From NCBI GenBank assembly GCA_951799445.1, contig OX637297.1, forward strand, positions 1,364,001-1,428,000: DNA of 64,000 nt, read 5' to 3'. Below, piece by piece: positions 2,628 through 64,000 of this stretch; within the stretch, counting starts at the first letter, position 1, and the number at the start of each line of letters is the position of its first letter. The stretch is from Pseudisothecium myosuroides (lineage: Eukaryota; Streptophyta; Bryopsida; Hypnales; Lembophyllaceae). A program made the position numbers and the translations under genes. The notes under the pieces are model-generated. The model did not search any database and was not told the origin of the DNA. It saw only the letters and a list, made by a program, of their open reading frames with translations.

Positions 2628-3507
2628 CTCAACATCTAACTCTTCTTTGACCCTCTCCAGATCCTCAATGATCCTTCCCAACGAGTCATCCCGGGGAACT
2701 TCCGATTTCGGGGATTCCCGACTCTCACTCTTGAATCCTTTCTTCTTCTCTGAGGCTGGAACTTTCTCTGGGTTTCCTCTTTCTTCTCTGACGATTCTCT
2801 CTCTGACTTCTCGTCTTTCTCTTCCTCTTCCTCTTCTTCTCCCTTTGGAGTGATATTCAGTTTCATGAGCGTGGCAGCAGCCTTATAGGCAATCCTCTCA
2901 GGACCTCTCAGGGTTCCTAAGAACTCATAAATGGTCCTATCGCGGTTGCCTTGGTATTTCCTAAAGATAAGACCATCTTTGCTACTCTCTCTTTCACAAT
3001 ACCAGCCCAGAACACTTTCCTTTCTCCACTCAGTGCCCCAAATATCGTATTGGCCCAAGTTACTGTAATCCGGATTGGCCGCTCCGGATACAGGATCGGG
3101 AGTAGGAACTCTAGCAACCTTTTCTCTCTTGCATCCTTGCAGTCTGATACGGTGTATCCATCATTGCTGTGAGGAGCTTCAGAGAACTTACCCTCATAAA
3201 ACTTGAGCGTTCGGGAAGCCATACCCTCTCCTGGACGAGGAAAATCGTAAACCCGTTTCCAGGTATTGATAGTCCAACTGCTAGGAAGCGCCCGGGAAGT
3301 CTTGTCCCACTCATTCGACTAGTCCCTCGTCAGCTCCCGGATCATGTCCTCGTTCCTCAGCTTCCAGGGTCGGCGTAGAAAACCCGCGCATCCCATTTGA
3401 CTCAGGTCCTCCTCCAATTGTTTTCGGTAACCAGGGTCTTTCGGGATAATCGGGAGAACGTTCTTGAACTTCAGGGTGGCAGCTCTGCTTCCTTCGCCCT
3501 TTACCAT
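2628..3507 (-). pseudogene. ORF-X fragment in LTR-2
   Basis: Segments in different frames align with the complete ORF-X at 7465-9363. At 3319-3507 is the N-terminal block with LEEDL..MGC....RPW. At 2917-3222 is the core with LLEFLLPILYPERP and ANTIFGALSGER. At 2630-2920 is an acidic and charged stretch. Stops and frameshifts separate these pieces, and the C-terminal half is missing at the block A junction. Confidence 0.75.
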
Positions 3508-4177
3508 TGCACTCTAAAGTTCTACCAATCGCTCTCAAAAACAATCCTCACACAGTCCCTCACTAATGCAAAACTATAGATTTTTCGACCCATCACTAGT
3601 CTTTATCTCTCTCCCGGGTCCAGAAACTCAGAGCTCTCTCTTTCTCCTCGCAACCTGACTCACCACAAAACCACTTCGAGCGCTCCAAGGTTTCTACAAC
3701 TCTCAGAATGAGAAGTGCGAGCAGAAACGCCGACCCCGAGGTCTTCTCCCGTCCAGCCGTTTTCTAGCCGTTAGGGTTTCCCGTTTCCGCCGGAATCCCG
3801 GAAGATTGTAACCGTTAAACGGTCTTCCTTATCTTTCGGTAGAGCCGTTGGATCGCAGAATTGCCCTAACGGCTTCCTCTAGGATCTCCGGTATCCTCTG
3901 GTATCCTCCGGTACATGTTCATACCCGGCCCCAGTATATTGAACAAGTCTAGATTTAATCCCCGGTTCCGTATCCGGTTCAGACATCTGGTAAAATCAGG
4001 AAATTCTAATTCCCTTTATTAACCTATTTATCTATTTACGATTATCCTATACTGGAGAAATCTTAATTTTGGTAAAACTCGTATTTAAGCCTTGCGAAAA
4101 GCTAAAAATTTTACCATTTCTCACTCCTTTCATATTACTAGCCAACTAACCTTATCCTTATATTTTGTGCTCCCACA
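2628..4177 (-). mobile_element. LTR-2, truncated by block A
   Basis: Read on the minus strand, the LTR begins TGTGGGAGCAC at 4177, like LTR-1 (9815) and LTR-3 (50248). It continues through a promoter region and the N-terminal half of ORF-X, and stops at the block A terminus. The missing 3' half should lie left of block A, outside the window. Base composition includes the frequent CCGG words of this LTR family. Confidence 0.75.
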
Positions 4178-6224: not shown

Positions 6225-6322
6225 CTACAATCGATTGTTCGCTCTCGTCTTCATAGCCCAGACATCCCGTATTATAGCCTCCATTTTCTGTTTCTGTGTA
6301 GCTGATACAGGATTCATAGTAA
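6225..6322 (-). pseudogene. C-terminal exon fragment of the 135-aa ORF family
   Basis: The minus frame reads NPVSATQKQKMEAIIRD and ends at the TAG at 6225-6227. It aligns with the end of the ORF at 10240-10647 (YTPEQQQLVDAVVRDAKAR). The frame continues on the other side of LTR-1 at 9816, so the LTR is an insertion within it. Confidence 0.65.
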
Positions 6323-7464
6323 TGTGGTAATTGTCGTACGCGTAATCTAGGTGTAAGTATCTTTAACCACAAAAACGTGCTAAGATGACACAAGTTATCG
6401 TCCCAGGAGATTCCAGACGTTGCTTCAAAATTAGTTTCTCGAGACCTCTAAGTTTCCGGACTTTGACCACCTTGAGAGGGGTCCTTTCAACACACAAACA
6501 CTTTTCCGGAACTACTTCCTTTCCGGATTCTCTTCCGGATCCGGCCCTATCCAATATTCCGGTTCCGTCTTTCTAACAAGTTGGTTTTCGATACCTCTGT
6601 TTTACCCTCAGAGGGTTCCTTACTTGCTCTTTCCGAGGGGTAGGGAACTGCACCACTCCGTATCTGACATAAACTCTAATAACATAAAACAAAACACAAC
6701 CCAAGAATAAATCTAGTTGAGTAAACAGGGTGGCCTCCTCACAACATTCCGGATGGCCTATCCGGAAAGCTGGTCACACAGGGTAGCGTTAGGTTCTCCT
6801 TACTACAACGACGGATACCGGACTTCCGGAACTAAGGGAATGACTTCCTAGCTCTCGACCGCTCATGAGGTTGACTAGCCTTCCGGACGGGTGGAAATAT
6901 TCCTCTGGCGGTTGCCTATCTCCGCACGGAACCGCCCCTGCGAATTCCGGACTAGCTTCCGGACCACTCCTTGGTCTCCACCGGATTACCGTACCAGCGT
7001 TTTAAAGGCGCCACTTTCTCACTGCGCAAGTCTAAAAACTCATCTGCAAGACACACTTAGCCTAATCCGGCAGTCCACAAATCCGGACTCCTCCCCCTTG
7101 CACACTCTCACTTACACATCCACACAAGTGACTATAGACGCGATACGCAAGAGAATAATCCAACGAGTGCTTTCCTGAATGCTTTAGATTAAATGAACAA
7201 GGAAAAAGGAATGACAGGCCAACAAACCGGCCTGCCCTTAAAAACCCACAAAAAGGCAGCCCAAACGGCCACCAGAAAACCGGCCAACGGCCAACTAAAA
7301 AGCAAAAAAAACAACGGCCCTGAAGACCGTTCCGGGAAAACTGCAAAACCGTTTAACTCCTAAAAGTCCGGAACTACTGGGCCTACATCCGGAAAATCCG
7401 GTTCCGGAACTACCATCCTGGTAAGAATCCTAACTACAATTACTGCTACTGCTACCCTAGATAG

Positions 7465-9363
7465 TCATTTATTTCTCTTAGCCTTCTTTACAGACGTGCC
7501 ACCCTGAGCTGGCGATCCACCTGTCTTCTGGGGTGGGGTGTTCTTCGTCTTCGACCTGGTCCGGGGAGGCTGCAACTCTTCCTCCTCCGATTGAGTCGTA
7601 TCCCCCTCTTCCGATTTCGGGTCCGTCTCGCTCAGTAGCCGTCGTCCCCTTGGTTTCGGAACAGTAAGATCGATGAGCTGGGACGGTGGCGGTGTCTGGA
7701 GAAAGGGCTGGAGCATGTGGGTGAAACTCACCGGATCCGTCCGGGCTGGATTCAACACCGTTCCGGGTAAAGCTGGTTCCCGGAAAGTAGAACCCACCGG
7801 TCTGTCGGGGAACAGATTTGCTACGGACGCAGTTCTTCCAACTGGGACGCCTAAGACAACATCTTTTACTGGAGTGGAGGCCGCAAACTGCTTCACCAGC
7901 GACCTCCTCTTCTGTGCCGATGCTGTTCCGGCTTGCGACGTTCCGGCGATTGTCTTGCTCTTTGCCGGAGAAGGCTGGTTCTGTGCCCCTCCTTCTTGGA
8001 GATCCTGACCTAGGTCAAAAAGGCCTTGGTCTAACCCCTCAAGCGGATCCAAGTTTCCCAACAGTTGCCGGACTTCCTTGAGCATTCCCTCAATCCGGAC
8101 TTCAAAATCCACAAGGATGCTCACCACCTTCGATCCCGCCACGTGACCATCCTTCACCATGTGATTATTCCAGAGTGTAGCTCTGGCAAGAATATCTGCC
8201 GGAGTGTCAAACAGACTTCTGACATTCCGGACCAGATCGAGGGCTTCTCCCTCTTTTGTTTCAGCGGCCATCCTCTCCTTCTCCGACCACGCAGCTTGTT
8301 CTCGAAACCGGTCCCGTTCTTGCTCCAAGGTTAGAATCCGGTCCTCCAGCTGCTTCACCGCTTCCGGATCTGGCCTTTCCGTCAGCGCCATGAGGATTTG
8401 GGTTTCTTCCTTCACACCCAATTTCTCGCACATTTGCCGGATCAGCGCCGACATCCGCTCATTCTGTGCCCGGGTAGCTAACAGCCATTTGATGGTGGCC
8501 TCTAGCTGATCTGTTTCCGGAAGTGGTTCTCGGGGCTTCTCTTCCTCCTCGGCTTCTTGCTTCCCCCGCGCACCCCGATCAGTCGATTTCCGGCGCGTCC
8601 CTCCAACGTTTGGTGATGTCTGCTCCGGTTCTGGTTCCTCTTCTTCCGGCTCGAGCTCATCCGGTTCATCTTCTGCGGGAAGTCCATACCTCAACAAATT
8701 CTCGCCCTTCCGGTATATGGTCATTTCCGGTCCGGCCAGTGCATCCTCGGAGTGATACAGATGAAAAAGATAGGGGCTAATCGGACTTGACTTCTTGTTC
8801 GCGATATTGACCGCTAACTTTTCCACTACGGAGTGAATGATCACTCCCCAGCTGACCGGCCTGGGAGCCGGATTCTCTCTATCTCCCAGCACTCCGAAAA
8901 TGGTGTTTGCCACGGTCATTGTAATCCGGGTGGGCTTTTCCGGATACAAGATAGGGATGAGGAATGCTAACAACTGCCCATCCCGTGGACTCTTACAATC
9001 ACTCGCGGTGTTTCCCTCCTTGGAATCCGCATGACTCCGGAATACCTCCACGGCGTAAGTATCCGTCCGGGACGCCATTCCAGAACCCCTACTCGGCGTA
9101 AAGTATGCCTTCGCCCACAATTCCGGAGTCCAGGCCCTAGATCGACCCCTAATCGTCAAATCGAACTGATTACCTACTCCGGAAACCAGCTCATCAATCA
9201 TCTCTTCACTCCGGACGTTCCATGGACGTTTTACCAATCCTAAACACCCCATGATTTCTAGGTCCTCTTCTAACTCCTTCAGGCACTCCGGATCCGATGG
9301 GACAACCGGACGTACGCCCCGGGCTGTCACTACCGACCTCCGGGATCGACTCGCTTCCGCCAT
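7465..9363 (-). CDS. ORF-X, LTR-encoded coiled-coil protein of unknown function (632 aa)
   Basis: This is the only uninterrupted copy of a protein family found at six or more places here. I use the ATG at 9363 (MAEASRS) because the LTR-3 copy starts at the matching place (MAESSN); the 37 upstream codons are leader. By residue: about 15-60, TARGVRPVVPS, LEEDL and RPW; about 110-200, LLAFLIPILYPEKP, ITMTVANTIFGVL, and SPYLFHLYH; about 225-290, acidic and proline-rich; about 290-370, coiled coil; about 375-435, a block conserved in every copy (DTPADILARATLW..., SILVDFEVRIEGML); the end is Ser/Pro-rich and basic (KKAKRNK). There is no protease, RT or zinc knuckle. Extra ORFs upstream of gag are known in Ogre/Tat elements, but this one lies within the LTR. 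Function unknown. Confidence 0.75.
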   Translation of the reverse strand: MAEASRSRRSVVTARGVRPVVPSDPECLKELEEDLEIMGCLGLVKRPWNVRSEEMIDELVSGVGNQFDLTIRGRSRAWTPELWAKAYFTPSRGSGMASRTDTYAVEVFRSHADSKEGNTASDCKSPRDGQLLAFLIPILYPEKPTRITMTVANTIFGVLGDRENPAPRPVSWGVIIHSVVEKLAVNIANKKSSPISPYLFHLYHSEDALAGPEMTIYRKGENLLRYGLPAEDEPDELEPEEEEPEPEQTSPNVGGTRRKSTDRGARGKQEAEEEEKPREPLPETDQLEATIKWLLATRAQNERMSALIRQMCEKLGVKEETQILMALTERPDPEAVKQLEDRILTLEQERDRFREQAAWSEKERMAAETKEGEALDLVRNVRSLFDTPADILARATLWNNHMVKDGHVAGSKVVSILVDFEVRIEGMLKEVRQLLGNLDPLEGLDQGLFDLGQDLQEGGAQNQPSPAKSKTIAGTSQAGTASAQKRRSLVKQFAASTPVKDVVLGVPVGRTASVANLFPDRPVGSTFREPALPGTVLNPARTDPVSFTHMLQPFLQTPPPSQLIDLTVPKPRGRRLLSETDPKSEEGDTTQSEEEELQPPRTRSKTKNTPPQKTGGSPAQGGTSVKKAKRNK

Positions 9364-9530
9364 CTCACCGACTGCTAGGACAATCCGGTGCAATCGGCAC
9401 CTTCCTCCCTTTCTCTCCCTAACACGCCCTAACTCACCACTCTTTCTCTCTTCTAACGCACCGTGGAAGAACACGGGTAAAAGAGACTGAATGAGGCTGG
9501 CGGTGGGGTTTAAGTACCTGTCGGAACCCT
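9364..9530 (-). promoter_or_regulatory. Leader and TATA-like site for ORF-X
   Basis: On the minus strand a TATA-like TACTTAAACCCC (about 9508-9519) precedes the ORF-X start by about 150 bp. LTR-3 (about 35738) and LTR-4 (about 63941) have GGGTACTTAAG at the equivalent place. The leader contains GGTGCCGATTGCAC in both LTR-1 and LTR-3. Conservation of this short segment in diverged copies supports a real promoter and leader. Confidence 0.5.
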
Positions 9531-9815
9531 AAGTTCCCGCCGCCAAAAACGTTCCCGTAAGTTCCCTAGCCGGAACCTAGGCGGTAGGTCCCTACGATCC
9601 GGAACTTTCTGGAACTTTTCGGAACTTTCCGGCTACGGCTTCCGGCAGCCTGCGTAACCTATTTAGAGTTTTATCCTTTCTACTTAGAAACTAATTTCTA
9701 TTTTTAATATCTAAGTCCTAACTTGGTATTTAAATACAAAAATTGAAAAAGTTCTGCTACTTTTATCTCCACTAAATTGCTAATTGGGACTTTCCGGATG
9801 ATACGTACTCCCACA

Positions 9816-9889
9816 GTAATGCTTGGTGTTGTCGTTTTCGTCACAACAGCACCCCATATCGGTGATGGATTTGGAACATTTTGTTTAGA
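9816..9889 (-). pseudogene. Other half of the exon split by LTR-1
   Basis: The minus frame reads NPSPIWGAVVTKTTTPSIT and joins directly to MNPVSATQKQ at 6322 when LTR-1 is removed. It resembles the ERYFPVIWDPYTPEQ part of the ORF at 10240-10647. Its upstream boundary is unclear because the second copy of the 3' flank unit starts about here. Confidence 0.5.
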
Positions 9890-21806: not shown

Positions 21807-21826
21807 ACCGTAGTGTGCGATCACCC
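21807..21826 (+). repeat. Right terminus of block B/C
   Basis: ACCGTAGTGTGCGATCACCC differs from the block A and E termini only at two adjacent bases. The preceding 40 bp differ from A and E, so the elements are related only at the tip. The tip lies about 200 bp upstream of the transposase start codon. Confidence 0.7.
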
Positions 21827-21879
21827 TGGGAGAGGAGCAGTCAAGAGCGTATGTGGGCTGCTGGATGGGATTGAAGCAT

Positions 21880-22778
21880 CTGAACTCGCGGAGAAAGTAG
21901 AGAATTTACTCCGGGATAGGGAGAACTGAAAGTGGGAAACCCGGGGTAAGGAGTTGACTGATCAGAACCAGAAACTTACCTGGGAACTAGAAGAGAGTAA
22001 GGGGGGGAGGAAACTTTCCCCAGAGGCTGAGGAGACTCTTCGTAGGGTTAGGACTTTTGTGTCAAATTCGGGGAATGTGATTAACAAAGCCAAACTGTTT
22101 GATGAAGAAATCCATAAGTCCGGGACTGAGGCAGCCGTTAAGTCAGTAGAGGTCCTGGTTGAGTATTCCGATGTGATGGAGAAGTTCATGTACGAGATCC
22201 GGGATGTTCTCCAAGAATCGGGCCTGTTCAAGGGCTCTAAAAAGGTGCCAATGTCGCCTCCTACAAATGTGAGGCCAAAGAGTAAGTCCAAGGAAGAGAA
22301 GACACCCGCCAAGGAAACTTCCAAACGGAAGTCAGAAGGTGGAGAAGGGTCAAGACATGGATCCGGATCCAAGGAGAAGGCCCGGAAGTCCGGATCCGAA
22401 CTCGGGACACCCCAAAGCAAGGATTCGTAGCCATCTCCAACGATGCCAAGCACCACAAAGAAGAAGACGACACCAAAACAAGGAAGGGAGGTGACCCCTG
22501 TGAGTTACCATTTCGAGGAAGATGAGTCGCCGAGTAACTCAGCGAAGGAGGGCAGCCAGTCTGGATCCGGTTCCCAGTCCAAGTCACATCCAGGCATGGA
22601 ATCTAAAGAAGAGTCAGAATTGGAGGCTATCTCCCCTTCGCGGTTCAAGGGTAAGTCTGCCTCGGCGACTAAGGTGAATATGATGAAACCACCTAAACCG
22701 TCTCCAAGTAGGAAACAGCCCGCCCGGAAAGGAGCCGTCAAGCTAGAGGAACCTTCTTCGAAGCGTCAGAAGAAGTAA
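21880..22778 (+). pseudogene. ORF-X C-terminal half in LTR-5
   Basis: The frame covers the coiled-coil end (NQKLTWELEES), the conserved block (KAKLFDEEIHK, VEVLVEYSDVMEKFM), a Lys/Ser-rich region and the basic end SSKRQKK. A TAG at 22428-22430 interrupts an otherwise continuous frame, and further stops lie before 21954. The N-terminal half was lost or displaced at the block B/C junction. Confidence 0.75.
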
Positions 22779-23035
22779 TTAGGTAGTCCCTTGAGTTAAC
22801 CCTAGCATGGTTAATATTAAAACTCAAATTTTTGATAGGTAGGAAGCAGTCAGTTAGCTGCTTTTCAGTCGGATGAACCTGGACTTCACTTTCCAGGTTT
22901 TTAGGATCTGAGATCCACATTTTGTAGATCGGCTGGGTGTGATAGGAAAGTCAACGTGGGGAGGATAAGGGAATGACAGCTGTCATTCTCTGGTCCTCTG
23001 CTTTTGATTCCCAGTGGCCTTTAGGGTTCTCTGGG

Positions 23036-23056
23036 TATTTAGTATTTAAGGGGCTG
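23036..23056 (+). promoter_or_regulatory. Second TATA-like site in the LTR
   Basis: TAGTATTTAAGGGGCTGA lies about 265 bp after the ORF-X stop. LTR-6 has GCTATTTAGGGGATGA at the matching place (about 56018), and LTR-1 has TTTTTAAGGGCAGG (minus, about 7235). It is a candidate start for the genomic RNA, which would place ORF-X in U3. Confidence 0.4.
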
Positions 23057-23609
23057 ATTTTGGTTGGAAGCCCCGGGTATTCTTATGTGCATTTTCAGTA
23101 CTTTGCAAATTGAATTCAAATTTCCACTTTGCAAGTACTGGTCTGAAAAGTCTCAGTCTGTGTTGGTATGCCATCAGTGTGTTATGCATTGGTAGTGCGG
23201 GTAGCTGGTTTGCAGGTGTTGGAGCAGAATAGATAGCCCCCGGATTCTGTCTGGATCCGGTTCTAGGAGTAATTGGAATTGGGATTAGATACCTTGTGTA
23301 CCAAGAGGGAGTTTCAGCTGCTGATGTTTCTGGAGTATCTTCTGAGCGAGATAGCCATTCTTAGGCTAGGTAAGTTCTTCAGATTGGAGAGTGAGCGCTA
23401 GACGACGTCTGATGAGGTCCTGCTGTGTCCGGAAGGGAGGAACGGGAAGGTAGATGGGATCTCTTAGTATCAGGGTATATGATCCAGCTCTTGGAATTCT
23501 TTCTGGATAGATTTGTCGTTGTAGTATTGTGGGGATTGTAAGGGTCTTTTGAGTGACCTTCTTGTCTGGAGTAACTTCCTGGATCAGTTGTGAGGAAATA
23601 CTTGCTTTC

Positions 23610-24051
23610 GGGTCAAAACGAGGTAATAGGAGCGAACTTCGACGTCACCATTGCTTTATTGAAGTTATTATTGATTGTGTAGCTCAATTTTGTTTGGATT
23701 TGTCCCAAAAAAACATACCTCAATAATCATAATTATTATAGTGACACATTTGAATTATGTATAGTCTTTGATATCATTATTTCATCTAAATTAAGTACAA
23801 AATCCCTCCAAATTAAGCATGTAACCAGTGCTTAATGAAAATAAAAAAGATGAAAATCATACTCAATTTGATTTAAAATAACCACTTTAATGACGTTCAT
23901 GGACAATAAATAGATAAATGAAGCCATACATGAATGTTTAGGCATTCCAAGAGCTAAATGAACAAAAATAAAAATTCAAATTTCAACCAAAGCAGTCCAA
24001 TAAGCACTACAAAGCATGTCGCGAGTGGCTCCTATTACCTCGTTTTGACCC
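23610..24051. mobile_element. 442-bp MITE with 24-bp terminal inverted repeats
   Basis: The termini are GGGTCAAAACGAGGTAATAG and its reverse complement, extending 24 bp without mismatch. TTTC flanks both sides (23606-23609 and 24052-24055). The equivalent position of LTR-6 (about 56573) has no insert, which supports precise insertion. The interior is AT-rich with no ORF. I cannot assign the superfamily. Confidence 0.85.
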
Positions 24052-24581
24052 TTTCTGGTTTTCTTTGTTTTCTTTGTTATTCTTCCTTTAGTGGAACTTC
24101 AGCCACTTTAATCTAGTAAAGGGTAGGATTTACGTGTCCTTCCTTAATCTCAAGAGCGGACCCCTCTAATGAAGAGGTTAAATTATAACATGGTTCACTT
24201 TGCTTACTAGATCCGGAACCGGGAAAGGTACAGGATTACGACACTCATCCTAGTTCCTCATTTAGTCAAGTAGGATACTAAGTTACTATTATTTTCGTGA
24301 AGACATGTAAACCTGGTTCTTGTTGATTGATAATATGTTTGAGAGCTAGGTTAAAATAGGAGAAAGTTAAAGGAATACAGATCGGGAAGTCTAGATCCTC
24401 ATTCTTAGTCTCGGATTCTGTTTGCCTTGGGTTTGTGTTCCGAACCTTGTTCCGGGAATGTTGAAGAAAGTACTAGTTGAAATCCTGTGGGAACGATACA
24501 CGAGTCATCTTAGGTGTTTTTGTACTAGATTAACGCCTCAGGGAGGGATTTGTGCTTTCATGTGTTACGACACAACAAAAG

Positions 24582-24599
24582 TGGCACCGTTGCAAGGGA
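24582..24599 (+). promoter_or_regulatory. Primer-binding site, tRNA-Asp-like
   Basis: TGGCACCGTTGCAAGGGA lies a few bases after the LTR end and matches 15 of 18 bases of TGGCGCCGTTGCCGGGGA, the tRNA-Asp-type PBS I know from Tat-lineage plant elements. Gag begins about 155 bp downstream. Confidence 0.7.
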
Positions 24600-24753: not shown

Positions 24754-26394
24754 ATGAAAAGAAAGGAAAAAAGAGGAACTTCCAAAAGAAGATCTGCCCA
24801 GCTTAGGAGAGAGGAAGATCCTGTTCCTGAGTTTCCAAGTGTGAACTTAGAACCGCGAGTACGTCCTAGCTTAGAAGAAGAAGGGGAATTGGTCGTAGAA
24901 TCATTAGGAGAGGTAGGCGGTACTGATACTGTACCAAACCCAAATCTAGTGGTTGTGGAAGAAGCTCCGGTTTCATCTGAAGAAGAAGAGGATCGACTTG
25001 AACCTAAGCCTAGGAATCTCAACGTCATGGGTTCCACTTGTTTGAAGTATAGCAGTTTTAAGGGAGATGGAGGTCAGGATGTTGATGACTGGTTTTGTGA
25101 ATTTGAGTCCATTGCTATAGCAAATCAGGAAAACTTGGACGCAAAGCAACGTATATTTCAGGGTCTCCTTAAGGGAGAGGCTCTGAAATGGTATCAGGAC
25201 GTTCCGGTTGCTATCCGGGATGACTGGGAGCAGTTGACCGAATCCTTTGTCAGAACATTCCGGAAAGCCGGAGGTGAAGCTCGTGCCTTGGGTCGACTAA
25301 GTAGGATGAAAATGAAACCATCTAAATTAGTTCGTAGATATGGGCCGAGAGTGAAGGCCCTTATCCAAAAATTGACTACTGAAATTGCTCTAAGTGTGCA
25401 AGTTGAGTGGTATGTGGCAGGGTTTCCGGAAACAATGAATTTTCAGATCCGGCAGGCTCGCCCGGCCACGTTGAGAGCAGCTATGGAAGTCTCTCAAAAT
25501 TATGAGGATTCAACCCAATCACTTCAAAATGCTTTGAGAAGGACCGAGAGGAAGAGCAAGAAGCATTCCAAGAAAGGGAGAAGGCGAAGGAAGTACTTTG
25601 AGAGCTCAAGTTCGAGCAGTGGATCCACCACTTCTTCATCGTCATCTGATAGCTCAGAGACCGACCCTGGAGTGGCGTCCGGAACCAGATCCAAACATCA
25701 TCAACACAAGAGCTCCAAGGACGACAAGGGCAAGGGCATTGTCAAGGTCAAGATTGAAGAAGACGAAATGAAGAAGGTGATTAAGAGCATCCAAGAATTG
25801 CTTGAAGCCATCAGAGTCAACATGGTTGAGAACCGGAATCCAAGACGGACTGTCCCCACAAGCAGAGCAAATGTTTGGTGCCCCCGATGTGGAGAGGCAG
25901 GATACTTCCCTAGTGAATGTAATAGACCGTATGTGAAACGGGTCTACTACGTGAACCCGAAAGGAGAAGTCTACGTCACCATCCCGGAGGACGAGGAAGA
26001 GGAAGATCTGAATCCGGTTTTTCAAGTCCAACCCACTTACGGACGAGGAAAGGCACCCCAACAACTGATGAGAGCCAATGTCGTTCCCAGATCTGCTCAA
26101 GTCAGGATGAATCCAGGTATGATGTCTCAGCCAAAACCTTATGGGTTTTGCTTCATTTGTGGTAGCTCGAAACACTATGCCAATGGGTGTCCTTTTAAAG
26201 GACCCGAATAGGGAGCACTTGTGATTTTACCATGTCAAAATTGCCAGGAATATGGGCATGGTGCAGGCCAGTGTCCAAAGCCACCACAGAATAGAGTAAT
26301 CTACAAGCAAGTTGAGGTTCCTCCTAGAGATCAGACCGCACTCAACTATGGATCTAAAACCGGAATTGAAACCCCGGATAAATGACCCGTAGGG
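24754..26394 (+). pseudogene. Ty3/gypsy gag with zinc knuckles
   Basis: I start at the first in-frame ATG (24754, MKRKEKRG). The acidic N-terminal region is followed by a capsid-type core with DDWFCEFESIA, GEALKWYQDV, LTESFVRTFR and VEWYVAGFPETM. A Lys/Arg- and Ser-rich linker precedes three zinc knuckles. The first, CPRCGEAGYFPSEC, has Tyr in place of His. The second, CFICGSSKHYANGC, is canonical. The third, CQNCQEYGHGAGQC, lies beyond a TAG stop at 26209-26211 in the same frame. A TGA follows near 26383. Gag packages the RNA genome in the cytoplasm. The stops indicate an old or dead copy. Confidence 0.85.
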
Positions 26395-26892: not shown

Positions 26893-28268
26893 CGGTTTAA
26901 GCTTCCGGCTGTAGCTATAAACTTTGCCCAAGTTGAGGATTACGGACCACCTGAGCTGGTCGTGGAGATAGAAGGATGTTCCGTCTCCAAAGTCTTGGTA
27001 GATGGAGGATCTAGGGTAAATCTGATGTTGGAGGATACGGCCTTCGATTTGGGGTTTACCACATTCGAATCCACTGACCAAGTACTAAGGATGGCGGATC
27101 AATCTAGGGTTGATCTAGTTGGAAGGCTCTCTCAAGTAGCAACCCGGATTGGGAAGGTAACTTATCTTCTTAACTTCGTCATTATCCGGGTAGACAAAGG
27201 AAGACCGTTTCCTATGTTACTAGGTAGACCTTGGTTATATGCTGTCAGAGTGATTGTGGACTGGGGACACAAGGAATTCATTGTTGGAAAACCCAATATC
27301 CGGATTCCTTGGAAAAATGAAGAACACAAGGGAGAGACAAGTGAATCGGAAGGATACACTACGGACTGGTCAGATCCGGAAGGTTCTTCCTCCATATCTG
27401 TCAATTTTGTTGGGGAGTTTGCTAGGATGACTGAAGCAGATTTTGAGTTTCCGCAACTCGTCGTGGAGTTGGGTCAACCAGAGGAACAAGAAATCCCGAA
27501 TCCTGCTCAAGGATCCACAGCCGGTCAAACGGACGACCAATCACTGGGAGAAGCTAGCGTGCCACTGACAGCAGAATGGATAAGGTGCCAGATCCAGGAA
27601 GGCAACTTGTCTACTTTAAGTTTGACAGAGGGTAAGACTGATATCCCTTGGAGCGAGTTCCGAACCCTGTCGGAGGAACTGGAACCGGATCGGATTAAGA
27701 ACATAGTGAATCTTTCAGACTATGAGAAGGTGGAGGTTGAGCCAGGGAAGTTCTTTGTCCTGGAAAAATCTTTGATTAGAAATGAGAAGAGAAACTATGT
27801 TAGGTTATTGAGAAAATACATAGATGTATTTGCTTGGATTCCACCGGATCTGGGGGAACACCGGATTGACCTAGTTGATGGAGCTGTTCCTATCCGACAG
27901 CGTTAGTATAGACTAAATCTGAAGTACTCACTCATGGTAAAAGAAGAAATTGACAAACTGTTGGAAGCTGGGTTTATCTACCCGGTTAACAACTCAGAAT
28001 GGATTTCACCTATTGTGGTTGTTCCCAAAAAGGTGGGGGCAGATGGGAAGGTGAAGATCCGGGTCTCTCAAGATTTCTGGAAACTAAATGCAGCTACAAA
28101 GAAGGATTATTTTCCATTACCATTCACAGATATAATCCTTGATAAAGTTTTCGGTCAGGAATGTTACAGTTTCCTGGATGGGCTTTCCGGATACAATCAG
28201 GTGACTATCCGATTGATGGACCAGTTGAAGACCACCTTTACAACGGAGTGGGGGACATTTGCCTTCAA
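26893..28268 (+). pseudogene. Ty3/gypsy protease and truncated reverse transcriptase
   Basis: The protease active-site motif reads VLVDGGSRVNLM (26992-27027); the DGGS form is usual in several plant gypsy lineages. It is followed by PMLLGRPWL (27212-27238) and a long acidic linker. A TAG near 27904 separates this from the RT start: IDKLLEAGFIYPV, WISPIVVVPKK, VRVSQDF-like IRVSQDFWKLN, and FLDGLSGYNQV, then TTFTTEWGTFAF. The sequence stops just before the expected PFGL segment, so the catalytic YxDD motif, RNase H and integrase are absent. The junction is at about 28268. Confidence 0.85.
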
Positions 28269-29944: not shown

Positions 29945-32160
29945 AGGGATAAATTGTCGCAGCACAGAGTAAGCGAATTCCCTGTTATACTCCCAAAAAC
30001 CACTTTAAAGCATAACAAAATGACTCTAAAGATCGAACCCACGAGATTCTGTGAAGTGTCTAGCACTATTCCCAACTTAAGCTCAGCCAGTATCTAATTT
30101 CTCCTTTCCGGTCCTAGATCTAAAACCGGAAACAACAACACACCGAAAACAACGACCAGACCTCTCTCTATTTCTTCCGGTCTGTCAAGCTATTTGGTCC
30201 CGTAAAACTTCCACGACCCAGGATCCTAACACTTCTGATCCTGGAACTCCTCTGGACCGATCCGATCCGGTCCTCACACACGTACTCTCACTCCACTCCG
30301 GTTTAGTTTAGCCTCTGTTTCACCATCAGAGGGTTCGCCGCTTGCTTTTGAGAGTGGCAGGCCCGCCACTCCTTCCGTGACTTATAGTGGCTGAAGACCC
30401 ACTTCTCTAATCCACTACTTCCTACACTAGCGCGGATCCGGTTTGATCTCTCACAGCCACCCGGACAGCGATCCGGTTGGCAGGTCACACAAAGACCCCC
30501 CGTACGATCCTCTCATACTACAACGACCTTGATGCCAAGTTCCCTCCGTGCGGAGTTAGGTGGTTACAAGCGAACTCATCCGTTCCAACATCAACTAAAG
30601 TTCTTCCGTTTACCAACTAGGGCAGCGAGACCTCACGGGAGATCGGGCACTCAACCGGATTTCCTATCCAGGAGTTCTAGCGCGTTTAAGGACTCCTTCC
30701 CTATCCGCCTAGCCTAACAACGGCTTTCTCGCCCGGAATCGTGAACTATAGAGACGCTGAGGAACTGAAATCCGCTCCCAACACTTAGAAAACCCACTCA
30801 CATGCACATAAGAGCAAAACAAACACACCAAGGGGAGAAATCTCTCTAGAATCTGCACACATTTTCCTAACTCCTCACTAAAACAGCCCTGCCACGCGCG
30901 GGAGAGACGTACAACAAGAAATCAATAGAAAATGCACAAAAAACTCAAGGGAAAAGACTCTCAGTCTCCTTCGCAGAGACTGACTATATACATTTTAAAA
31001 CTCAAAAAGTCAACATAAAGCGGCCCGGAAAGTCCGCGCGAAACTTTCGGTCCCCGCCGAGCCGGCCAGACCGGAAAACATCCGATCCAGACCAGGCACA
31101 TCCGGATCAAATCCGGTCCGGTCCTAACTAACAAATATTTACAACTAAAATCCTAACTACCCTATCATAACCGGATCTACTCCTTGATCCGTTCCTTCGT
31201 CCATGACTTCGTCTTCGCCTTGGTCCACGCTCTGTTCTTGATCCTCACCCTGATCTGGGGTCAGATCCATACTTTGATCTTTCCCCGGGTTCAGTGTGGG
31301 ACTTCTCGGCGGTTCCGTTCCAAGCTGCTCGAAAACGTCCGTCAGGTTCCGGTTCCGCTCCCCTGTTTCACGTTCTGGGAGATCCGGTGACGAATCCAGG
31401 TTGATGGTGTGCGCGAGTTTCCTCCCACTCTTCTTTGACTGGGGAGTCCGATCCTTTCCTTCCGTTGGAATGCCCACGTTCGGAAAAGATCCGGGCATTG
31501 AAAGGTCGGACAGATGGAACGATCGTGACAACGTCACTCCGTTCAGCTTCCTGCTGCTCTCCTCCATCCGGTTTGCAGCCTCTCGTGCGTCCATCATGAC
31601 TAACTCCACCTTTTCGGAGTAGTCTGTCAAAATTCGGACCAACCTGGTCCCGGATATCTTTTTCTCCTTGAGGACTCCCTCGTCAAACAACTTTGACTTG
31701 GTGATGGCCTCTCCGGTTGCTCCGAATGTGGCCTTCACGTCCTCCGCTACTTTCCCTCTCCTAGCCGCACGTCCCGTTTCTCACCTTCGCTCTTCCGATC
31801 TCAACCGGAATACCTCTAAACCTGCAACGCACACTAAAGCGCTGCGCGCCCTAACACTCTAACACGCACATACAAACCAACTCAAAATAAGAAAGCAAAA
31901 CGCTGGGAAGAGAGGCTAAGTACGCGCTGGAGCGAGATTTCCGCAAATGAAGATTGAAAAAGAGTGGCCACTGGATTGGTCAGCCCATATATAGTCTGAT
32001 CTATCATCATGACCAAATCCGTTCTTGACCCATTCCGATCCAACTCAGATCCGTTCTAACTCTAATCCGGTTCAGATTCAGATCAAATTCGGATTGTCAT
32101 CTATTCCGTTCCATTAGTTAATTTCCGGTTATCGGTTACCTCCTACTTGAATCCGGATCC
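29945..32160 (-). mobile_element. LTR-7, diverged copy with deleted ORF-X N-terminus
   Basis: Read on the minus strand it has a TATA box (TATATATG, about 31986-31993), a leader, the ORF-X C-terminal half, a second TATA-like GTATATAG (about 30983) and a 1-kb tail sharing GTTTAGCCTCT and CAGAGGG tracts with LTR-6. The 3' end has GCGACAATT near 29947, like LTR-1. No PBS follows, so it is probably a solo LTR. The outer start beyond 32160 is not clear. TCCGG words are dense. Confidence 0.6.
31157..31738 (-). pseudogene. ORF-X C-terminal part in LTR-7
   Basis: It aligns with the conserved block of ORF-X: KSKLFDEGVLK, VRILTDYSEKVELVM. The tail is acidic and repetitive (DQGEDQEQSVDQGEDE) instead of basic. 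Upstream, a short leader-like stretch joins it directly with the N-terminal 60 percent missing. The 193-codon frame itself is uninterrupted. Confidence 0.65.
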
Positions 32161-33762
32161 CAGATCACGGTTTCCGTTCCAAGATTTAGATAACTTACAA
32201 AAAACCAAAAATTTACCTTGCGACATAAATTACATTGGAAGCTTGATGGCAAAGTTGCTTTGCCGAGAGTTCTTTCTATGTAAAAGACTCCCTTAAATTG
32301 ACAATTAAGGGAGATTGTAAAATTTAATTCTCCCTTGACCATTGTATAAGTCAAGAGATGGACTTACACACCTTTTGTAGAATTCAATGAGAGATTCTGC
32401 AAGAAGTTTCGGAATTTTCTGATCCTCAGAAGATGCTTTTCCGAACGGTAAACCGCCAAAACCTAAGATGGAAAATTCTTGGAAATTACCCAGGTTGCGG
32501 TAAAATCTCACTAAAAATTAGAATAGCTTCTTTTATGTTAATAAGACGCTTCAACAAGTTTCAAGGTATTCCGATTGCCAAAAGTACCCGAATTGACAAG
32601 ATTCTCCTTGTACCGGCAAAATTGAAGATTACGGTGGGAGTTAACCGGCATCCCGGGAGCATACGAATTCGGAATAGGGTCAAAATTAGGTCTTTCCTTA
32701 CTCCCTCAAATCTACTAAAGAGCCTAGGCTAGTTACTTTTCTCAGAAAAGTCAAACTCCAGGAACTGAGTTTTTTAACCCATTTTGGTGTTTAGTTAGCG
32801 CTAAGTTTTATTGAGTTTTTGACGTCAAATTAGGGGGTAGGGGAACCCTTGGACTAAAAATGGCCTTCTGAAGCTAATGGCGCAATCCGTTTGTGATTTG
32901 GAGTTAATCTCCAAAAGTTAGAAAATGGTCCAGCGTAGAAAGTCAAAATTGGTAATTTGAGATTAAAATCTCAAAAGATAGGTTTACCGCAAAGAAATGA
33001 GAGGAGGTGGGTGCCCTTGGAAGAGTATTTAAGGGGCACCTCTTCTCCTCTCAACTCACCCCTTTGTACCATTTTTGTTAACAATCTTTCCACGTTGTTC
33101 TACTTGGGCCAATTTTCGGTTCCAAATTTGTAAAACGTGTGTTTTCGGTTTCAGTTGTTGTTATTTTGTAAAGCTTTGAAGGACTTGGGGTCCCTTCAAA
33201 GTTTTGTTGAATTATGATGTGTTTTGTGGAGATTTTTGTGTACTAATTATGTCTCTTTGGGTGTTATACTAATCCCCAAGATACCCCCTTCCGTACCTTG
33301 GCGATGCCGCTTTAGAGGGCCTTGGGTTCTTTTAATTGTGTGTTTTTGTACTAACATTTGATCTAACCAAGTTTATGTGATTATCTTGTACTAACTTTCC
33401 AATTAACCAAGTGGTAGTTGTGTGTTGTACTAACCTTCGTGTGCATTCTTTGTTTTTCTTGTCCCATTTGGGATGGCGAAGCTTTGACTTCGAGCCTAAT
33501 TTGTTGGTCCTATTTTGTATTTTCCTCTTTGATTGTTGTTCAAATTGGGGCCTCAACCCCCCGAACAGCAAAGCTTTGCCTTTAAACTAATTTTTTCCGT
33601 ATTTGTTTTTTTTAGAAAGAATTCTCCACTTCTTCTTCTCCAAATTTTAGAATTTTCACAGGTTAGAGTGAACCAAAATTTCAGACTATAGCTGTCAACC
33701 AAGTTGAACCAAAACCAAAGTGACCCCCTTGTGCACCTACAATCGCCAGAGAGTCTGTGAAG

Positions 33763-33783
33763 AAAAAAAAAAAAAAAAAAAAA
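33763..33783. repeat. A21 tract
   Basis: An uninterrupted run of 21 A. It could mark the 3' end of a retroposed sequence inserted to its left, but I see no flanking duplication. Confidence 0.9.
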
Positions 33784-33837
33784 TGTTTACAGAGAGTACT
33801 CAAGTGATCCAAGCACTGAAGTGAATGGAGAGGAGAG

Positions 33838-34052
33838 GTCTGAAATTTCAGATGGGAGAGTCAACCTGAGTTGACTGAGAAGGTTGAAGTCCCTTAGACA
33901 TCCAGGGAGTGCATAGAAACTCAAAGAATGCGAAAAAATTTCAGATTTTCAGAGAGACCCCATGGAGTGATTGTGAGGGGAGTGGTCTGTAATTTTAGAT
34001 GGTGAGTGCATGAGAGAGGTCTGAAATTTCAGATGGAGAAATCAAACTGAGT
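33838..34052. repeat. Direct repeat GAGGTCTGAAATTTCAGATG
   Basis: A unit containing this 20-mer, itself partly palindromic, followed by a TCAA and GAGTTGACT tract occurs at about 33836 and 34016. A degenerate relative lies near 33989 (GTCTGTAATTTTAGATGG). Confidence 0.7.
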
Positions 34053-34617
34053 TGACTAAAGCACAGAGTGAATGGAGAGATCCAGGCCCTGTCCAAAGCA
34101 GGAATTTGTGACATTCAAGCCATAATATCAGAAAATTGAGGTACACAGGAAGTGTGTTAGCCTTACTGAAGTTGGTTGAGAAGTGTGCTAACAAGTTGTA
34201 TACTAGTTATTGGAAATCTCCATCTGTGCGCATACTTGACAGGCCAAACACTGCCAGATTCCATTTAAAAACCAACATTTCAACTCAACAACACATACAC
34301 ACAAAACATTCTCCAAACTCTCAAGCTCTCAAGCTCTCAATTCCTTCAATGTGGAAGGAGGAGATGATGAGTAAAGTTAGAACTAAGAGAAATTAGTAGA
34401 AGAAGAGGATTAGGAAGGCGCACGAGAAACTCATTAAAAAGTAGCCAAAGAATTGGGGGAAAAGAATCAATGGCAAAGTAGTGGTTAGAAAATCCTTAGA
34501 ATATTCAAAGTCAACGATTAGAACATTCCAAATAGAGTAGGATAGTATTAGAAGGAAAAAGAAGAGGTGGGAAGAGAAAGTTAGAAGAATAGAAGATAGT
34601 TTACGTTGACTTTGAAA

Positions 34618-34661
34618 TTAAAAACAAAACAAAACAAAACAAAACAAAATAAAAATAAAAA
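34618..34661. repeat. (AAAAC)n microsatellite
   Basis: About six AAAAC units grade into AAAAT, just upstream of a short ATG-initiated frame. Confidence 0.9.
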
Positions 34662-35418
34662 ACCCATCAAAAATGGACCAAGTGGAGGAGTTTGAGGAGG
34701 TTCAAGAAAATCGATTTGAAGACACAAGCCCCGAGGTATTCTTCTAAAAGCTCTCTCTTTTTATTTTATTAGTAAAATTAAGTAGAGCCGAAGCTTAGGA
34801 GCAAGTCAGACCTCTAAAACTAGCGGTCAGGTCATTTGTGAATTTAGAATAGTGTAGAACATACACGGAGGTTTCCAAAAACATAAAATACTTAGAAATC
34901 GGAGTTAAAACAAGTAAGATATGGGTGGATGAAGATTAGGGTCAAAATTGGATGAAAAGTTAAAGGAAGTACTCACATGGAGTGAAACTTAGGATTAAAG
35001 TATAAGATAATTATTTAATCATATCTGTAAAATTCCAAATTATTCTAAAATAGAGAACTAAGTAAAAGGTGTGGATGAAGTTTTGCTTCTAAAGGCCAAA
35101 ACTTCATCCGTCCATAACCTTGGCTAGGAAGGTCGGATAAGAACGAATTTTATATTTTTAGAAAGGGCGTAAAATTCTCTAGAACTTCATGCTATTAGAT
35201 TTAGATTATCTTAACCTGAACAAAAAACCACAGTAGCTTGATCTATTCGGCCAATAGTTCTATTTATCGCATTTAAGTTATACTTAGTAGTAGAAGTTAC
35301 AAGTTTAACTACAAATTAGGCATTTAAGAAGATCCATTGCTTGGAAGGAATAGTGGACAACGCTTAGGCACCCAAATTAAAATAAGAATCTGTTAAATTA
35401 AAACAGAACCTGGTTGTG

Positions 35419-35994
35419 TTCGTTTATTTACCAAGGGTGGGTAAATAAACACTCACAGCATCCCATCCATGTCAAATCTTCCTCTAATTGTTTCCGGAAG
35501 GTCGGTTCAGACGGAATAAGCGGCCTAATTATCCGAGCCGTGACTGAGTACCGATGCGCTGCCGGGTTGCTAGACTCCGCCATAGTTTACCGACACAAAC
35601 TAAATCCAGTGCAATCGGCACCGACCTCACCTTTCTCTCCCTGTCGCGATCTCTAGCTCATCACTCTTTCTCTCAACTAAGCACGCAAGAAGATCTGTAA
35701 AGTAAGAATGGAAGAAACTAGGGCTAGCGAGGGCTTAAGTACCCATTGAGCTGCCGACCGTTCCCGGTTGCAAATGGAAAGAGGTCTGTTCCCGTAATGG
35801 TTCCCTAGGATCGTAGGCCGGAAACCTATTTCGTAGCCTGTTCCGATCCGATCCGACCCGGATTTAAGATCCGTTCCTTCTTCCGGAAAAATCCATTTTA
35901 ACGGATCTTGATCCTCGGAATCTGAATACCCGATATTTATCCGTATTCGGATCTAATTTATTATATCTTACCAGAATTTTGAAATTTTTGACTA
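35419..35994 (-). mobile_element. LTR-3, internal part left of the CACTA element
   Basis: Read on the minus strand, this continues from 50190-50248 across the CACTA insertion. It has the TATA-like CTTAAG (about 35738), leader and ORF-X start (ATG at 35583; MAESSNPAAHRYSVTARIIRPLIPSEP). The frame runs through LEEDLTWMGC and stops at HPW, where an 11-bp perfect palindrome arm pair (GTTTATTTACC and its complement, 35419-35449) marks the break. The rest of ORF-X and the LTR is missing. Confidence 0.7.
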
Positions 35995-36012
35995 CACTAG
36001 AAGAAACCATCG

Positions 36013-53989: not shown

Positions 53990-54009
53990 ACCGTAGTGTG
54001 CTTTCACCC
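53990..54009 (+). repeat. Right terminus of block E
   Basis: ACCGTAGTGTGCTTTCACCC is identical to the terminus of block A. The following DNA is LTR-6, inside ORF-X. Confidence 0.75.
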
Positions 54010-57000
54010 AGCTGTCAAGGGTTTCTGAATCTGCCCTAGAATTTGAGAGATGAAAGGATGGTGCGTGAGCTCATGGCGGAGCAATGAAGTGAATGGGAGC
54101 GGATAGTAAGGGCGCAACCATCTAAGTGGACCTCTGAGCTGTAGGGGACGGTGTACGGTTTCCCAGCGGAAGGTGAAGGATTGGCTTCACAGATGGATAA
54201 ATATAGGAATGGTAAATTTGCCAACCCTGTAAACCCCAAGGATGGTTATGCAGTCGCAGACTGCAAGAGCGTGAGAGCTAGGAGGGTCTTAGAGTTTCTA
54301 GTTCTGATCCTAAATTCCGAAAATAATGGCCTACTTGGATCACAGTTACACTTGCAAACACTATCTTTGGTGCACTATCCAGGAATAGAAAGGTGAATTG
54401 GGGGATAGTGATCTGAGATCTACTAGCCAAAATGTGTGCGGTGGTCGGAAAGTCAAAACCTTCCGGTCTTAGTCCTTTTTTCTTCCTCCTCTACCATTCC
54501 TGAGAGATAAGGAGAGGTCAACATATAAGGCTACAGAGGTTATGCTTCAGTAAACATTAGTCCAAAATCAAAAGCTGAAGTAGCAAAGGAGGTATTAGGA
54601 GAGGGTTCTTCCGATCCAGAAAAAGAAAAGGAAGCCCCCCGAGAGGAAGGAAAGGGGTTAGCTGAGGGGTCAGGAATGAAAGATCATGTTTGGGCACTTG
54701 AGGGGAAGGATGATTCCATAAATAAGGTCATAAAGGAACTTAAGGGGATTTGGGATCGCATTTATGTGGAGAGAGATGACCCAGAAAGTTTGTGAGTTGA
54801 TGGGTAAGGCAAACCCATCAAACCTCTATGAGGAAGTGGAGATTCTTCTCCATGGCAAGAATGTGAGTAAGTTAGAGGACCAGGTAGAGGAATTGTCCGG
54901 TCAAGTGAAAGCCCTCCGGACCAAGCTAAAACAGAAGTCTGAAGAGGCTATTAGGGAGAGGAAACTTTCGGTTGATTCCACGGAAACTCTTACCCGGATT
55001 TGGAACTTCATGGGGAATCCGGGTGACATAGTGAACAAGGCCAAGTTGTTTGAGGCCAGGGTTCTCAAGGAGGGATTGCAGATAGGGCCCAAAATTGTGT
55101 TAATACTGGTAGATTATGCGGAGAAAATGGAGTGTATGTTGGCCGAGATTAGACTGGTTATGATGGAGGTAGCCCCGGAACCGGAAACGGTAAAGGGAAC
55201 TGGCCGGTTAACGGAAGCAACTCCTTCGAAGGCAGCTCCCTCATTTTCTTTGCCTGGTTTTGCTGAGCGGAAGGACAAGAGCGGATCAAAGGACAAGACC
55301 CCGCAGTCTACCAAACCCTGTAGCCGGGTTGATTCTGGAACCAGAAAAGGGTCAATACCTAGATCCCAGACCAGAAGTCACTCAAAGACTGTGGAAGAAG
55401 ACCTGGAGACCCCAAAGAGTAAGATTTCCGGTCTTCCCTTGAAGACCACAAGTGCAGTGAAGCAGAAGACGACCACTAAACGAGTAAGGGAGTCAACTCT
55501 GCCCATCGAGTTTGAATCTGATGAAGAAGAGCCGCCTGAGACAACGGAGAACAAAGGCAGCACGGTTGAGTCGGAAGAGGCCTTGGAACCAGAACCGGAG
55601 TCTCCTCCATGCAGAAAGGAAAAAGGGAAGACTCAGACCCCAGCTTAGGGCAAGGTGACGCGTGGTACTCAACCCTTAGGCAGTAGGAAGCAACCAACAA
55701 AGAAGGGAGCCACCAAGCAAATGGAGAAGATCCAAAAGCGGTTGAAGAAGACTTAGATTCAGTAATTTTTTGGAGCAGAAGTAGGTAGGCAGATAAAAAC
55801 CAAAGTTTTTGACTTAAGAAGCAACTTACGAGTTAGTTTTGATGGTGATGAACCTGGACTTCCCGGATCTGGATTTGTTGGATCTGAGATCCATCTTTTG
55901 TGGGTGGGACCGCGTGTTAGGAAGTCAACGTGTTTTGGATTAGTAGAATGTGTCGTGTCATTCTCTGGTCTATTACTTTGATTCCTTAGGGGCTTTTAGG
56001 GTTCCCCGGATGTTAGCTATTTAGGGGATGAAGTTGGATTGATGCCTCGGGTGTTTTCATGTTTTTGTTTTCCTTCTTTAAGCGAATATTTACAGATTTT
56101 TACTTCATGGTGTTGAGTTTATCACTTTGCACTGAGTTGGTATGCCGACAATGCTAGAACCATTGTTTAGTGCGGGTAGATGGTTTTGCTGAATTAGGAA
56201 GGGAGAGTAACCCCTGGATTCTGTCGAGATCCGATTTCGGGCACTGAAAGGAGTTGGTCGGAAAACTGTGTGTACTAGATTTATCTCTCTGTTCTTGTTT
56301 GCCATCTAGGAACTTCTATGTGGGATAGCCGTTCTTAGATTGGGTATAATCCGTATCCGGATGTACGCTAGTCAACGTGTCAATGAGGTCCTATTATAAC
56401 CAGAAGTGGTGATGAGTAAGGGGATAGGGATCATTTAGTTATCTGGTTACCAATCCCTACCAAAGGGATACAGATAAGATAGGTTTGTTGTTGTAGCAAG
56501 GGTGGATTGTGGAGGTTTCTTGAATGACCTGCTAGTCCGGATTGACTTTCGGATCAGTTGTGAGGAAGAACTTGCATCCTGGTTTTGTATCTTTTCTATT
56601 TTCTTTGAGTGGAACTTCAGTCACTTTAATCCTTTGACGGGTAGGATTCAATGCATCCTCCCTCAACTCCAATAGTGGAGCCCTCTGATATAGAGGCTAA
56701 ACTTCTTGTACTGGTTACTTAAAATTCGATTAGGAAGTAGATCTGGAAGAGGTACAAGATTAGACACTCCTTCCGGTTCCGCATCCGTCTAGTCAAATTG
56801 ATGTTTTCTGATCTTAGATATGGAGAGGTACAGGTATAGGACACTCCTCCTTGTTTTGGTGACTGTACGATATATGTGTGGTACAAGAGAGAAAATATTT
56901 TAGAGAATAATGGAGTGTGGAGACATTATCCGGTTATGTTAGGCCTGGGTTGTTTTCCACGTCTCGTTCCGGTTATATTCTAGGAAAGTACAAATTAAAT

Positions 57001-57091
57001 CCTTTGGGAATGATACACAAGTCACTTGAACGGTGTTTTAGTCATTTTGAACACCTTCAAGAGTAATTGTGCTTCCTTGTTCTATGACACA
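54010..57091 (+). mobile_element. LTR-6, 5'-truncated
   Basis: It begins within ORF-X at the block E terminus, and runs through the ORF-X stop, a TATA-like site (about 56018) and a 1-kb tail. It ends near CTATGACACA at 57091, like LTR-5 (24574). No PBS follows, so it is a solo or truncated LTR. Tracts such as CCTCTGATATAGAGGCTAAA match LTR-5 and, inverted, LTR-7. Confidence 0.7.
54040..55755 (+). pseudogene. ORF-X copy in LTR-6, broken by stops
   Basis: Segments cover most of the protein except the first 50 residues: MVRELMAEQ, then GYAVADCKSVRARRVLEFL (54245-54300), a degraded core, then an open stretch 54764-55648 with coiled coil (SKLEDQVEELSGQVKALRTK), the conserved block (KAKLFEARVLKEG, VLILVDYAEKMECML), a Ser/Lys-rich region, and a basic end (KRLKKT) after a TAG at 55646-55648. 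Several stops lie in the first third. Confidence 0.75.
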
Positions 57092-57094
57092 CCT

Positions 57095-58249
57095 TCATCC
57101 TGTCACCATGTGCAGGATGAGGCATCCAGGGTGGTACACATGTGGACATGTATCTAGGCTCCATCCACCCTCGGGGCCGAAAGGCTCAAGACAAATTATA
57201 CATGTCGTCCCATCGTAGACAAATTTTGTTATAGAGGGCCACAAGAGAGGGTGAGGGCCACGGTGACCCTCACCCACATAGGTGTACCAAGCCGTATTGT
57301 ACTAGAACTCAAGGGATGGATCGTGATTCCAATCAATGCTCTTGTTCACAACCCCGTCGTGTGCCGGTAACGTCTCAGGAAACATGTCTTGTAGGACAAG
57401 CTATGACGTCAAGCCAAAATAGCGTTGACCATGGTCACCAAATTGAGCGGCCACTTTCTTCAATTCACGTTGTAGTTGCTGTGATTTGTTCATTGCCAAG
57501 ATACAAGTGAGCTTCATATTGCACATGGCTAACATCTTCCTTTCCCTTTCAAGGTCTTTAAGCATTTTGGGATTCAATAATTGCAATTCAACAATCTACG
57601 CATGCAATGCGGTGTTTTCCCTCTCCATTTCAACCTTTGCTGAGTTTAATTGCTCAACATTTGCTTCAGCTATGCAGGCACAACTTTCCATAACACGGGT
57701 GGCAGTCAACATTTCTGACAACGCGGCCTTTGTTTGTTGTACCTCTATCTCCGCTTGCATTGCTTGTGTCTGCATGGCTTCAACGGTGGTCTGATTGATT
57801 GTGCCCAAATGTGGATTGTCCTCCGATACGCTTTGACAACTTGAGCTCACTATTCCAAACCCTAAATTGAAAAGAAGGGGGCACAATTGCTGTACGAAGC
57901 CATCTTATGAAGTGGAGCCCACATCAACCTCCTCAACCACACCATATGTAGCAGTTGCCACCACGTTGTCTAAGGAGGATGTGTCATCCCTACTCAAGCG
58001 GTGTTGGGGATTTAAAGCTTCATCTAAACGGACCTTCAATCTCCCATTTTCATCTACAAGAGCTTGAGCCTTCTCCTTCTTCCTATTCATATTCTCTGTG
58101 TGCCTCCTAGACATTTCAACCTTCTCAAACTGCATTGCTACCACCACGTCTTGTACGCGCTCAACCTCTGAACTACCAACAACCATTCCAAAGAATCCGT
58201 TCATAGATTGAATAGGTGGGGTTCCGTTTGCAATGAAGTAGATGCACAA
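57095..58249 (-). pseudogene. Coiled-coil plus RING-like gene, minus strand
   Basis: From 58249 leftward: an N-terminal segment with long helices (FEKVEMSRRHTENMNRKKEK), a stop at 57905, then coiled coil (MQAEIEVQQTKAALSEML) with a TAG at 57596-57598, continuing as LLNPKMLKDLERERKML in the same frame to 57401. A further segment at 57277-57095 has CIICLEPFGPEGGW and CPHVYHPGCL, a RING-type Cys-His pattern. Order and composition resemble the intact gene at 50296-52345 although sequence identity looks low. It adjoins the end of LTR-6, which may have truncated it. Confidence 0.5.
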
Positions 58250-63576: not shown

Positions 63577-64000
63577 TGTGGAAGTACGAAAATGCCAAGT
63601 GCTTATATGGACGCTCATTTGAATCTAATACTCTGATTTTTAATGTAAGTAACGAGCGAATTGCAGATTAGAATAGGATTAGAATTAAGCCAAAAAATTT
63701 CAAATTTTGGTAAGACATAGAGAATTAGATCCAATTATGAATAACTTTAGAGTAGTCAGTTTTTGTGTAACTAGATCCTTTACGGCTGGTTTATTACCGC
63801 CAGTAGCCGGATGCGGAATCCGGAATTTTTTGGATGAACGGAACCTAGGGCCTAGACTTCCGACCTATGCACCTAGCGTACCGTTACGGGAACGGTCTCC
63901 TATCCGTTCTCCACCGGGAACGGTCGGCAGCTTGATGGGTACTTAAGTCCACACCAACCCTATTCTTCTTCCTTTTTACTTCGCAGACTTCTGCGCGCAC
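63577..64000 (+). mobile_element. LTR-4, 5' end, continues beyond the window
   Basis: It begins TGTGGAAGTACG, like the TGTGGGAGTACG start of LTR-1. The stretch at 63690-63750 (AAATTTCAAATTTTGGTAAG, AATTAGATCC) matches LTR-3 near 35935-35990 in reverse. A TATA-like GGGTACTTAAG lies at 63938-63948. The ORF-X start codon should lie about 150-200 bp past 63945, outside the window. Confidence 0.65.

Follow-up and report, generated by a model that had tools for sequence, protein, structure and literature searches.

A probable long terminal repeat with a gene inside

Can the long terminal repeat (LTR) of a plant retrotransposon carry a gene of its own? The question was raised by S, a 3,493-bp unit in a stretch of 64,000 nt (hereafter the window) from the moss Pseudisothecium myosuroides (contig OX637297.1, positions 1,364,001 to 1,428,000). 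An initial annotation had described S as an LTR that encodes a 632-aa protein, ORF-X (ORF, open reading frame). Our analysis indicates that S is very probably the solo LTR of a gag- and protease-bearing Ty3/gypsy family, and that its unique 3′ region (U3) holds ORF-X as a complete accessory gene, in the same sense as gag and with its own TATA-like site. We consider the explanation as a whole, this anatomy together with the function proposed below, likely. Features are listed in Table 1.

S begins with TGTGGGAG and ends with TTACCACA. Its length, the TGTGG/CCACA ends and the GTAA on both sides agreed with the initial annotation to the nucleotide. In element orientation, GCATTAC precedes TGTGG...CCACA and TTAC follows, giving a target-site duplication of 4 bp, or of 5 bp when counting the terminal A as shared. 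Within S, the first 1,400 bp matched the remainder over no more than 12 nt (E 0.36), with no internal direct repeat, so S represents one LTR rather than a two-LTR element that has shrunk. By eye, neither flank showed a primer-binding site (PBS) or a purine tract. S appears to be inserted in the final exon of a minus-strand gene: with the flanks joined, a minus-strand frame opens whose end (KMEAIIRDVWAMKTRANNRL, then stop) resembles by eye that of a tandem paralog (QLVDAVVRDAKARGSKCPSL, then stop), and the 3′ regions of the two genes are 84% identical over 233 nt. The suggestion that removing S restores an exon is thus plausible.

The module could be identified as an LTR from B, one of its six copies recognizable in the window (S, A, B, C, E, and F). 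As had been noted, this copy lies directly upstream of a PBS and gag: the module ends ACACAACA, and is followed by AAAG, by the 18-nt site TGGCACCGTTGCAAGGGA, which we take to resemble a PBS of the tRNA-Asp type, and by gag. The C-terminal half of ORF-X lies inside this unit, on the same strand as gag. The gag product also matched Ty3_capsid (29 bits, just under the cut-off of 29.1), and the sequence after the protease ORF carries what we presume to be reverse transcriptase (RT) motifs. Judged by motifs that we take to be typical, the family probably belongs to the Ogre/Tat/Athila group of plants. No additional RNase H (aRH), the mark of the Tat clade, was found in the protease ORF of B, where the remainder of pol is missing. 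The gag of B had 137 homologs among 7,989 candidates (120 of them listed); these and the homologs of ORF-X probably sit on the same contigs of another genome, with at least three contigs of equal size matched by eye (750066, 770113, and 326974).

Table 1. Features of the element family in the window (positions are those of the window; a dot marks features without strand)
Feature	Positions	Strand	Remarks
S, probable solo LTR, 3,493 bp	6323..9815	minus	Ends and flanks; without internal repeat; homologous to B, C, and E
Target-site duplication GTAA, left of S	6319..6322	.	
Target-site duplication GTAA, right of S	9816..9819	.	
ORF-X, 632 aa, intact, ATG start	7465..9363	minus	Homolog searches; profile E 3.1e-142
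TATA-1, TACTTAA	9510..9516	minus	153 nt upstream of ORF-X ATG
TATA-2, TTTTTAA	7238..7244	minus	221 nt past ORF-X end; presumed start of R shortly after
Tandem array TCCGGAACTT in U3 of S	9598..9632	.	10-bp unit, 3.5 copies
LTR copy A	2628..4177	minus	5′ part and ORF-X N-terminus (one stop)
LTR copy B	21827..24577	plus	5′-truncated; ORF-X C-terminal half; unrelated insert about 23618-24052
PBS-like site after B, 18 nt	24582..24599	plus	4 nt beyond B end
gag of B	24754..26211	plus	ATG at 24754; Retrotrans_gag 29 bits, above cut-off
Protease ORF of B	26962..27906	plus	Asp_protease_2 21 bits, under cut-off 24.3
RT start of B, truncated after	27934..28247	plus	RVT_1 E 0.089, under cut-off; end judged by eye
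LTR copy C	30050..35996	minus	Large insert about 32200-35430, ORF-X pieces on both sides; 5′ end uncertain
LTR copy E	54010..57097	plus	5′-truncated; ORF-X broken; 3′ end by eye
LTR copy F	63693..64000	plus	Region upstream of ORF-X, cut by window end; matches C; TATA-1

The remaining copies tie ORF-X to the module. Copy A supplies a second, independent 5′ end, TGTGGGAGCACAAAA, followed by the N-terminal part of an ORF-X. An ORF-X profile was built from seven homologs, leaving out the window protein to avoid circularity, and was searched against every stop-to-stop ORF in the window with a length of 40 aa or more (818 in total); the nine that matched at E up to 1 all fall in S, A, B, C, or E (best E of 5.3e-62 in A, 2.9e-26 in E, 3.5e-17 in B, and 8.1e-11 in C). 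The 3′ noncoding parts of S, B, C, and E are homologous, with six of six pairs exceeding all 200 dinucleotide shuffles and the reverse complement (z 5.6 to 42.6). S otherwise shows little direct similarity to the other copies at the DNA level (three short matches), pointing to old, diverged subfamilies. A PBS-like site is absent after S, C, and E, as expected of solo or 3′ LTRs, and C has no matching target-site duplication. Separately, CCGTAGTGTGCNNTCACCC occurs three times in the window (0.03 expected), at 2609-2627, 21808-21826, and 53991-54009, each time directly adjoining one of copies A, B, and E. The sequence apparently represents one end of a DNA transposon that has split these copies; the missing halves did not turn up in the window.

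The end of ORF-X lies 221 nt short of a TATA-like site that recurs in similar form in B and E, which places the ORF in U3. Because reverse transcription derives the U3 of the 5′ LTR from the RNA's 3′ end, an ORF located there would belong to both LTRs. Both TATA-like sites proposed initially are present in S, and each was found in three of the four copies that could be compared: TATA-1 (GGTACTTAA) in S, C, and F but not in A, and TATA-2 (TTTA(A/G)GGG) in S, B, and E, with C having TATATA nearby. The claim that ORF-X lies within the LTR, probably in U3, is thereby supported by S, one LTR that contains the whole ORF and is flanked by a duplication of its own, by the 5′ end of A, and by the C-terminal half in B before the PBS-like site. 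A layout with ORF-X present once, outside shorter LTRs, does not fit the window.

The ORF-X protein

The 632 residues form an N-terminal domain, an acidic linker, a coiled coil (about 283-440), a disordered part, and a basic end. The ORF-X pieces of B and E also have basic ends (KRQKK and KRLKKT, each past an internal stop), as do several homologs. Protein searches with ORF-X returned 46 matches among 7,992 scored candidates and 78 among 7,991, for a total of 80 homologous proteins, none with a Pfam domain in the precomputed annotation. Clustering the first 46 at 60% identity gave five groups, the largest with 42 members. Between S and A, the three codon positions are 0.58, 0.60, and 0.37 identical over 194 codons; nonsynonymous divergence (dN) is about 0.55, and synonymous divergence (dS) came out at 2.26 with one method, and three others gave saturation or no computable value. 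The fold match of ORF-X is weak, and no transposase family was found for it.

CCGG is enriched across the element

Among 136 tetranucleotides, CCGG ranks first in S, A, the LTR of B, the gag-pol of B, and E, and second in C (first-order expectation); its rank in the remaining 46 kb of the window is 100 (102 against 126). Under second-order expectation the excess is modest, with z of 3.3 in S, 2.5 in gag-pol, and 0.2 to 1.9 elsewhere in the element. TCCGGA occurs 26 times in S (1.6 expected; maximum of 300 shuffles, 6) and two to three times in each of A, B, C, and E, a count that shuffles reach as well. The inserts within the LTRs are CCGG-poor (none in the 435 bp of the B insert, three in the 3.2 kb of the C insert).

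Codon permutation gave an excess of CCGG in the ORF-X of S (39 against 19.0; reached in 0/1000 permutations), gag (12 against 6.2; 4/1000), the protease ORF (8 against 3.6; 4/1000), and the C-terminus of E (10 against 4.8; 2/1000). The ORF-X pieces of B, C, and A were matched by 96, 174, and 263 of 1000 permutations, and the four control ORFs by 671 to 1000. CCGG flanks favor WTCCGGAW, with no pairing above what column frequencies predict. S has one short array in its U3 and A has a two-copy array containing CCGG, yet the coding DNA is enriched in CCGG as well.

A possible function and the alternatives

Each insertion by reverse transcription would copy the ORF-X gene into both LTRs, and LTR-LTR recombination would leave a solo LTR with the gene intact. 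From the globular N-terminal domain, long coiled coil, and basic tail of ORF-X, and from the many CCGG sites of the element, we tentatively propose that ORF-X may be a nuclear DNA-binding protein that recognizes its family's own sites and acts in trans to regulate or de-silence those copies, in the manner of VANC in VANDAL elements. A more specific version, itself doubtful, would have the U3 gene in both LTRs encode a sequence-specific anti-silencing factor that reads WTCCGGAW sites across its own element, making it a retrotransposon counterpart of VANC in another element class. What the sequence shows is the place of ORF-X in the LTR, its conservation, and the motif excess; its presence in both LTRs of a full element, its expression, DNA binding with the motif as target, and anti-silencing are inferred.

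It is an even call whether the anatomy is right and ORF-X binds no DNA, serving instead in the particle cycle, RNA packaging, or RNA-level defense, while the CCGG excess comes from composition or another element protein. A coiled coil and disorder are compatible with many roles, the fold match is weak, gag and protease ORFs also have extra CCGG, and the Tekay extra ORF is likened to double-stranded RNA-binding proteins in the part of the source cited (PMC11728184). Against this, the excess in S persists under dinucleotide shuffling, four of seven pieces retain an excess under codon permutation, four of four control ORFs have none, and CCGG forms a short tandem array in U3.

Other readings dispute the anatomy itself, and the window holds no pair of module copies around one internal region, a caveat to our explanation. 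That S is a separate transposon with ORF-X as its transposase, and the PBS-like site beside B a coincidence, would suit the short inverted ends, the 4-bp duplication, and the lack of a PBS-like site after C, E, and S; we consider it improbable given the TG...CA ends, the failure to find a transposase family, and the homologous 3′ end of B lying 4 nt before an 18-nt PBS-like site and then gag on one strand. It is equally hard to credit that ORF-X is internal, between pol and the 3′ LTR or before gag, with S an internally deleted element. Described plant extra ORFs do sit in the internal region, according to the passages cited (PMC6317226; PMC11963269), but S lacks a direct repeat within it, the 5′ end upstream of ORF-X in S recurs in A, the 3′ part downstream is common to S, B, C, and E, and ORF-X lies within S and within the LTR part of B.

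Comparison with known systems

Proteins encoded in U3 are known from retroviruses, among them sag of mouse mammary tumor virus (MMTV). The sag gene lies within U3 and hence in both LTRs, as is proposed here for ORF-X; it belongs to an animal retrovirus, and no sequence relation was found, with none sought by name. VANDALs are Mu-like DNA transposons, in which VANC21 motifs lie in noncoding parts; VANC proteins bind such short tandem motifs of their own element and demethylate it in trans. They are thus of another element class, and ORF-X of S matched neither of the VANC domains DUF1985 and DUF287 at E up to 10, nor was either among the matches listed for 47 ORF-X members (25 of 47 families).

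In plants, the cited portions of the literature place the extra ORFs of Ty3/gypsy elements (Ogre, Retand, Athila, and Tekay) in the internal region, on either side of gag-pol, in sense or antisense (PMC6317226, PMC11963269, PMC11728184). These resemble ORF-X as accessory proteins of LTR retrotransposons with gag-pol, and are often predicted to be nuclear, but ORF-X is inside the LTR. Rice Retrosat2, RIRE3, and RIRE8 share with the S family an extra sense ORF and LTRs over 3 kb; their ORF0 is described as lying upstream of the gag-pol ORF, and the LTRs as not coding for enzymes (PMC3485330). Phrase searches of the Creative Commons-licensed literature found no plant case of an LTR-encoded protein, and within that literature an ORF inside a plant LTR appears to be new.

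In plants, LTRs are viewed as regulatory DNA. If one contained a conserved gene, solo LTRs, usually counted as relics, could remain genes, and pipelines that mask LTRs would discard a protein family. A single repeat left behind could go on making ORF-X protein, and that protein may help the element control its copies in the genome. If the anti-silencing proposal is true, each solo LTR would offer binding sites and at the same time supply the factor on its own, and the family would protect itself in trans after the loss of gag-pol. The CCGG motif makes the role of extra ORFs in plant retrotransposons directly testable.

Neighboring sequence

Long duplicated stretches, 90 to 94% identical, lie at 1-2627 and 51420-54009, the latter overlapping a minus-strand ORF with a RING-like match under the cut-off. 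Matches to the tnp2 transposase (PF02992) and DUF4218, both presumably linked to plants and hence a pointer to plant origin, occur at 45099-48201 as in a CACTA element. Next to LTR copy C, near 35994, a CACTA-like sequence was seen by eye. In the 46 kb outside the element copies, GTAC is strongly over-represented (574 both-strand counts vs 252 expected). Near-perfect inverted repeats with short loops, at 18881-19150 and 62911-63094 (95% and 97% complementary), are perhaps foldback elements.
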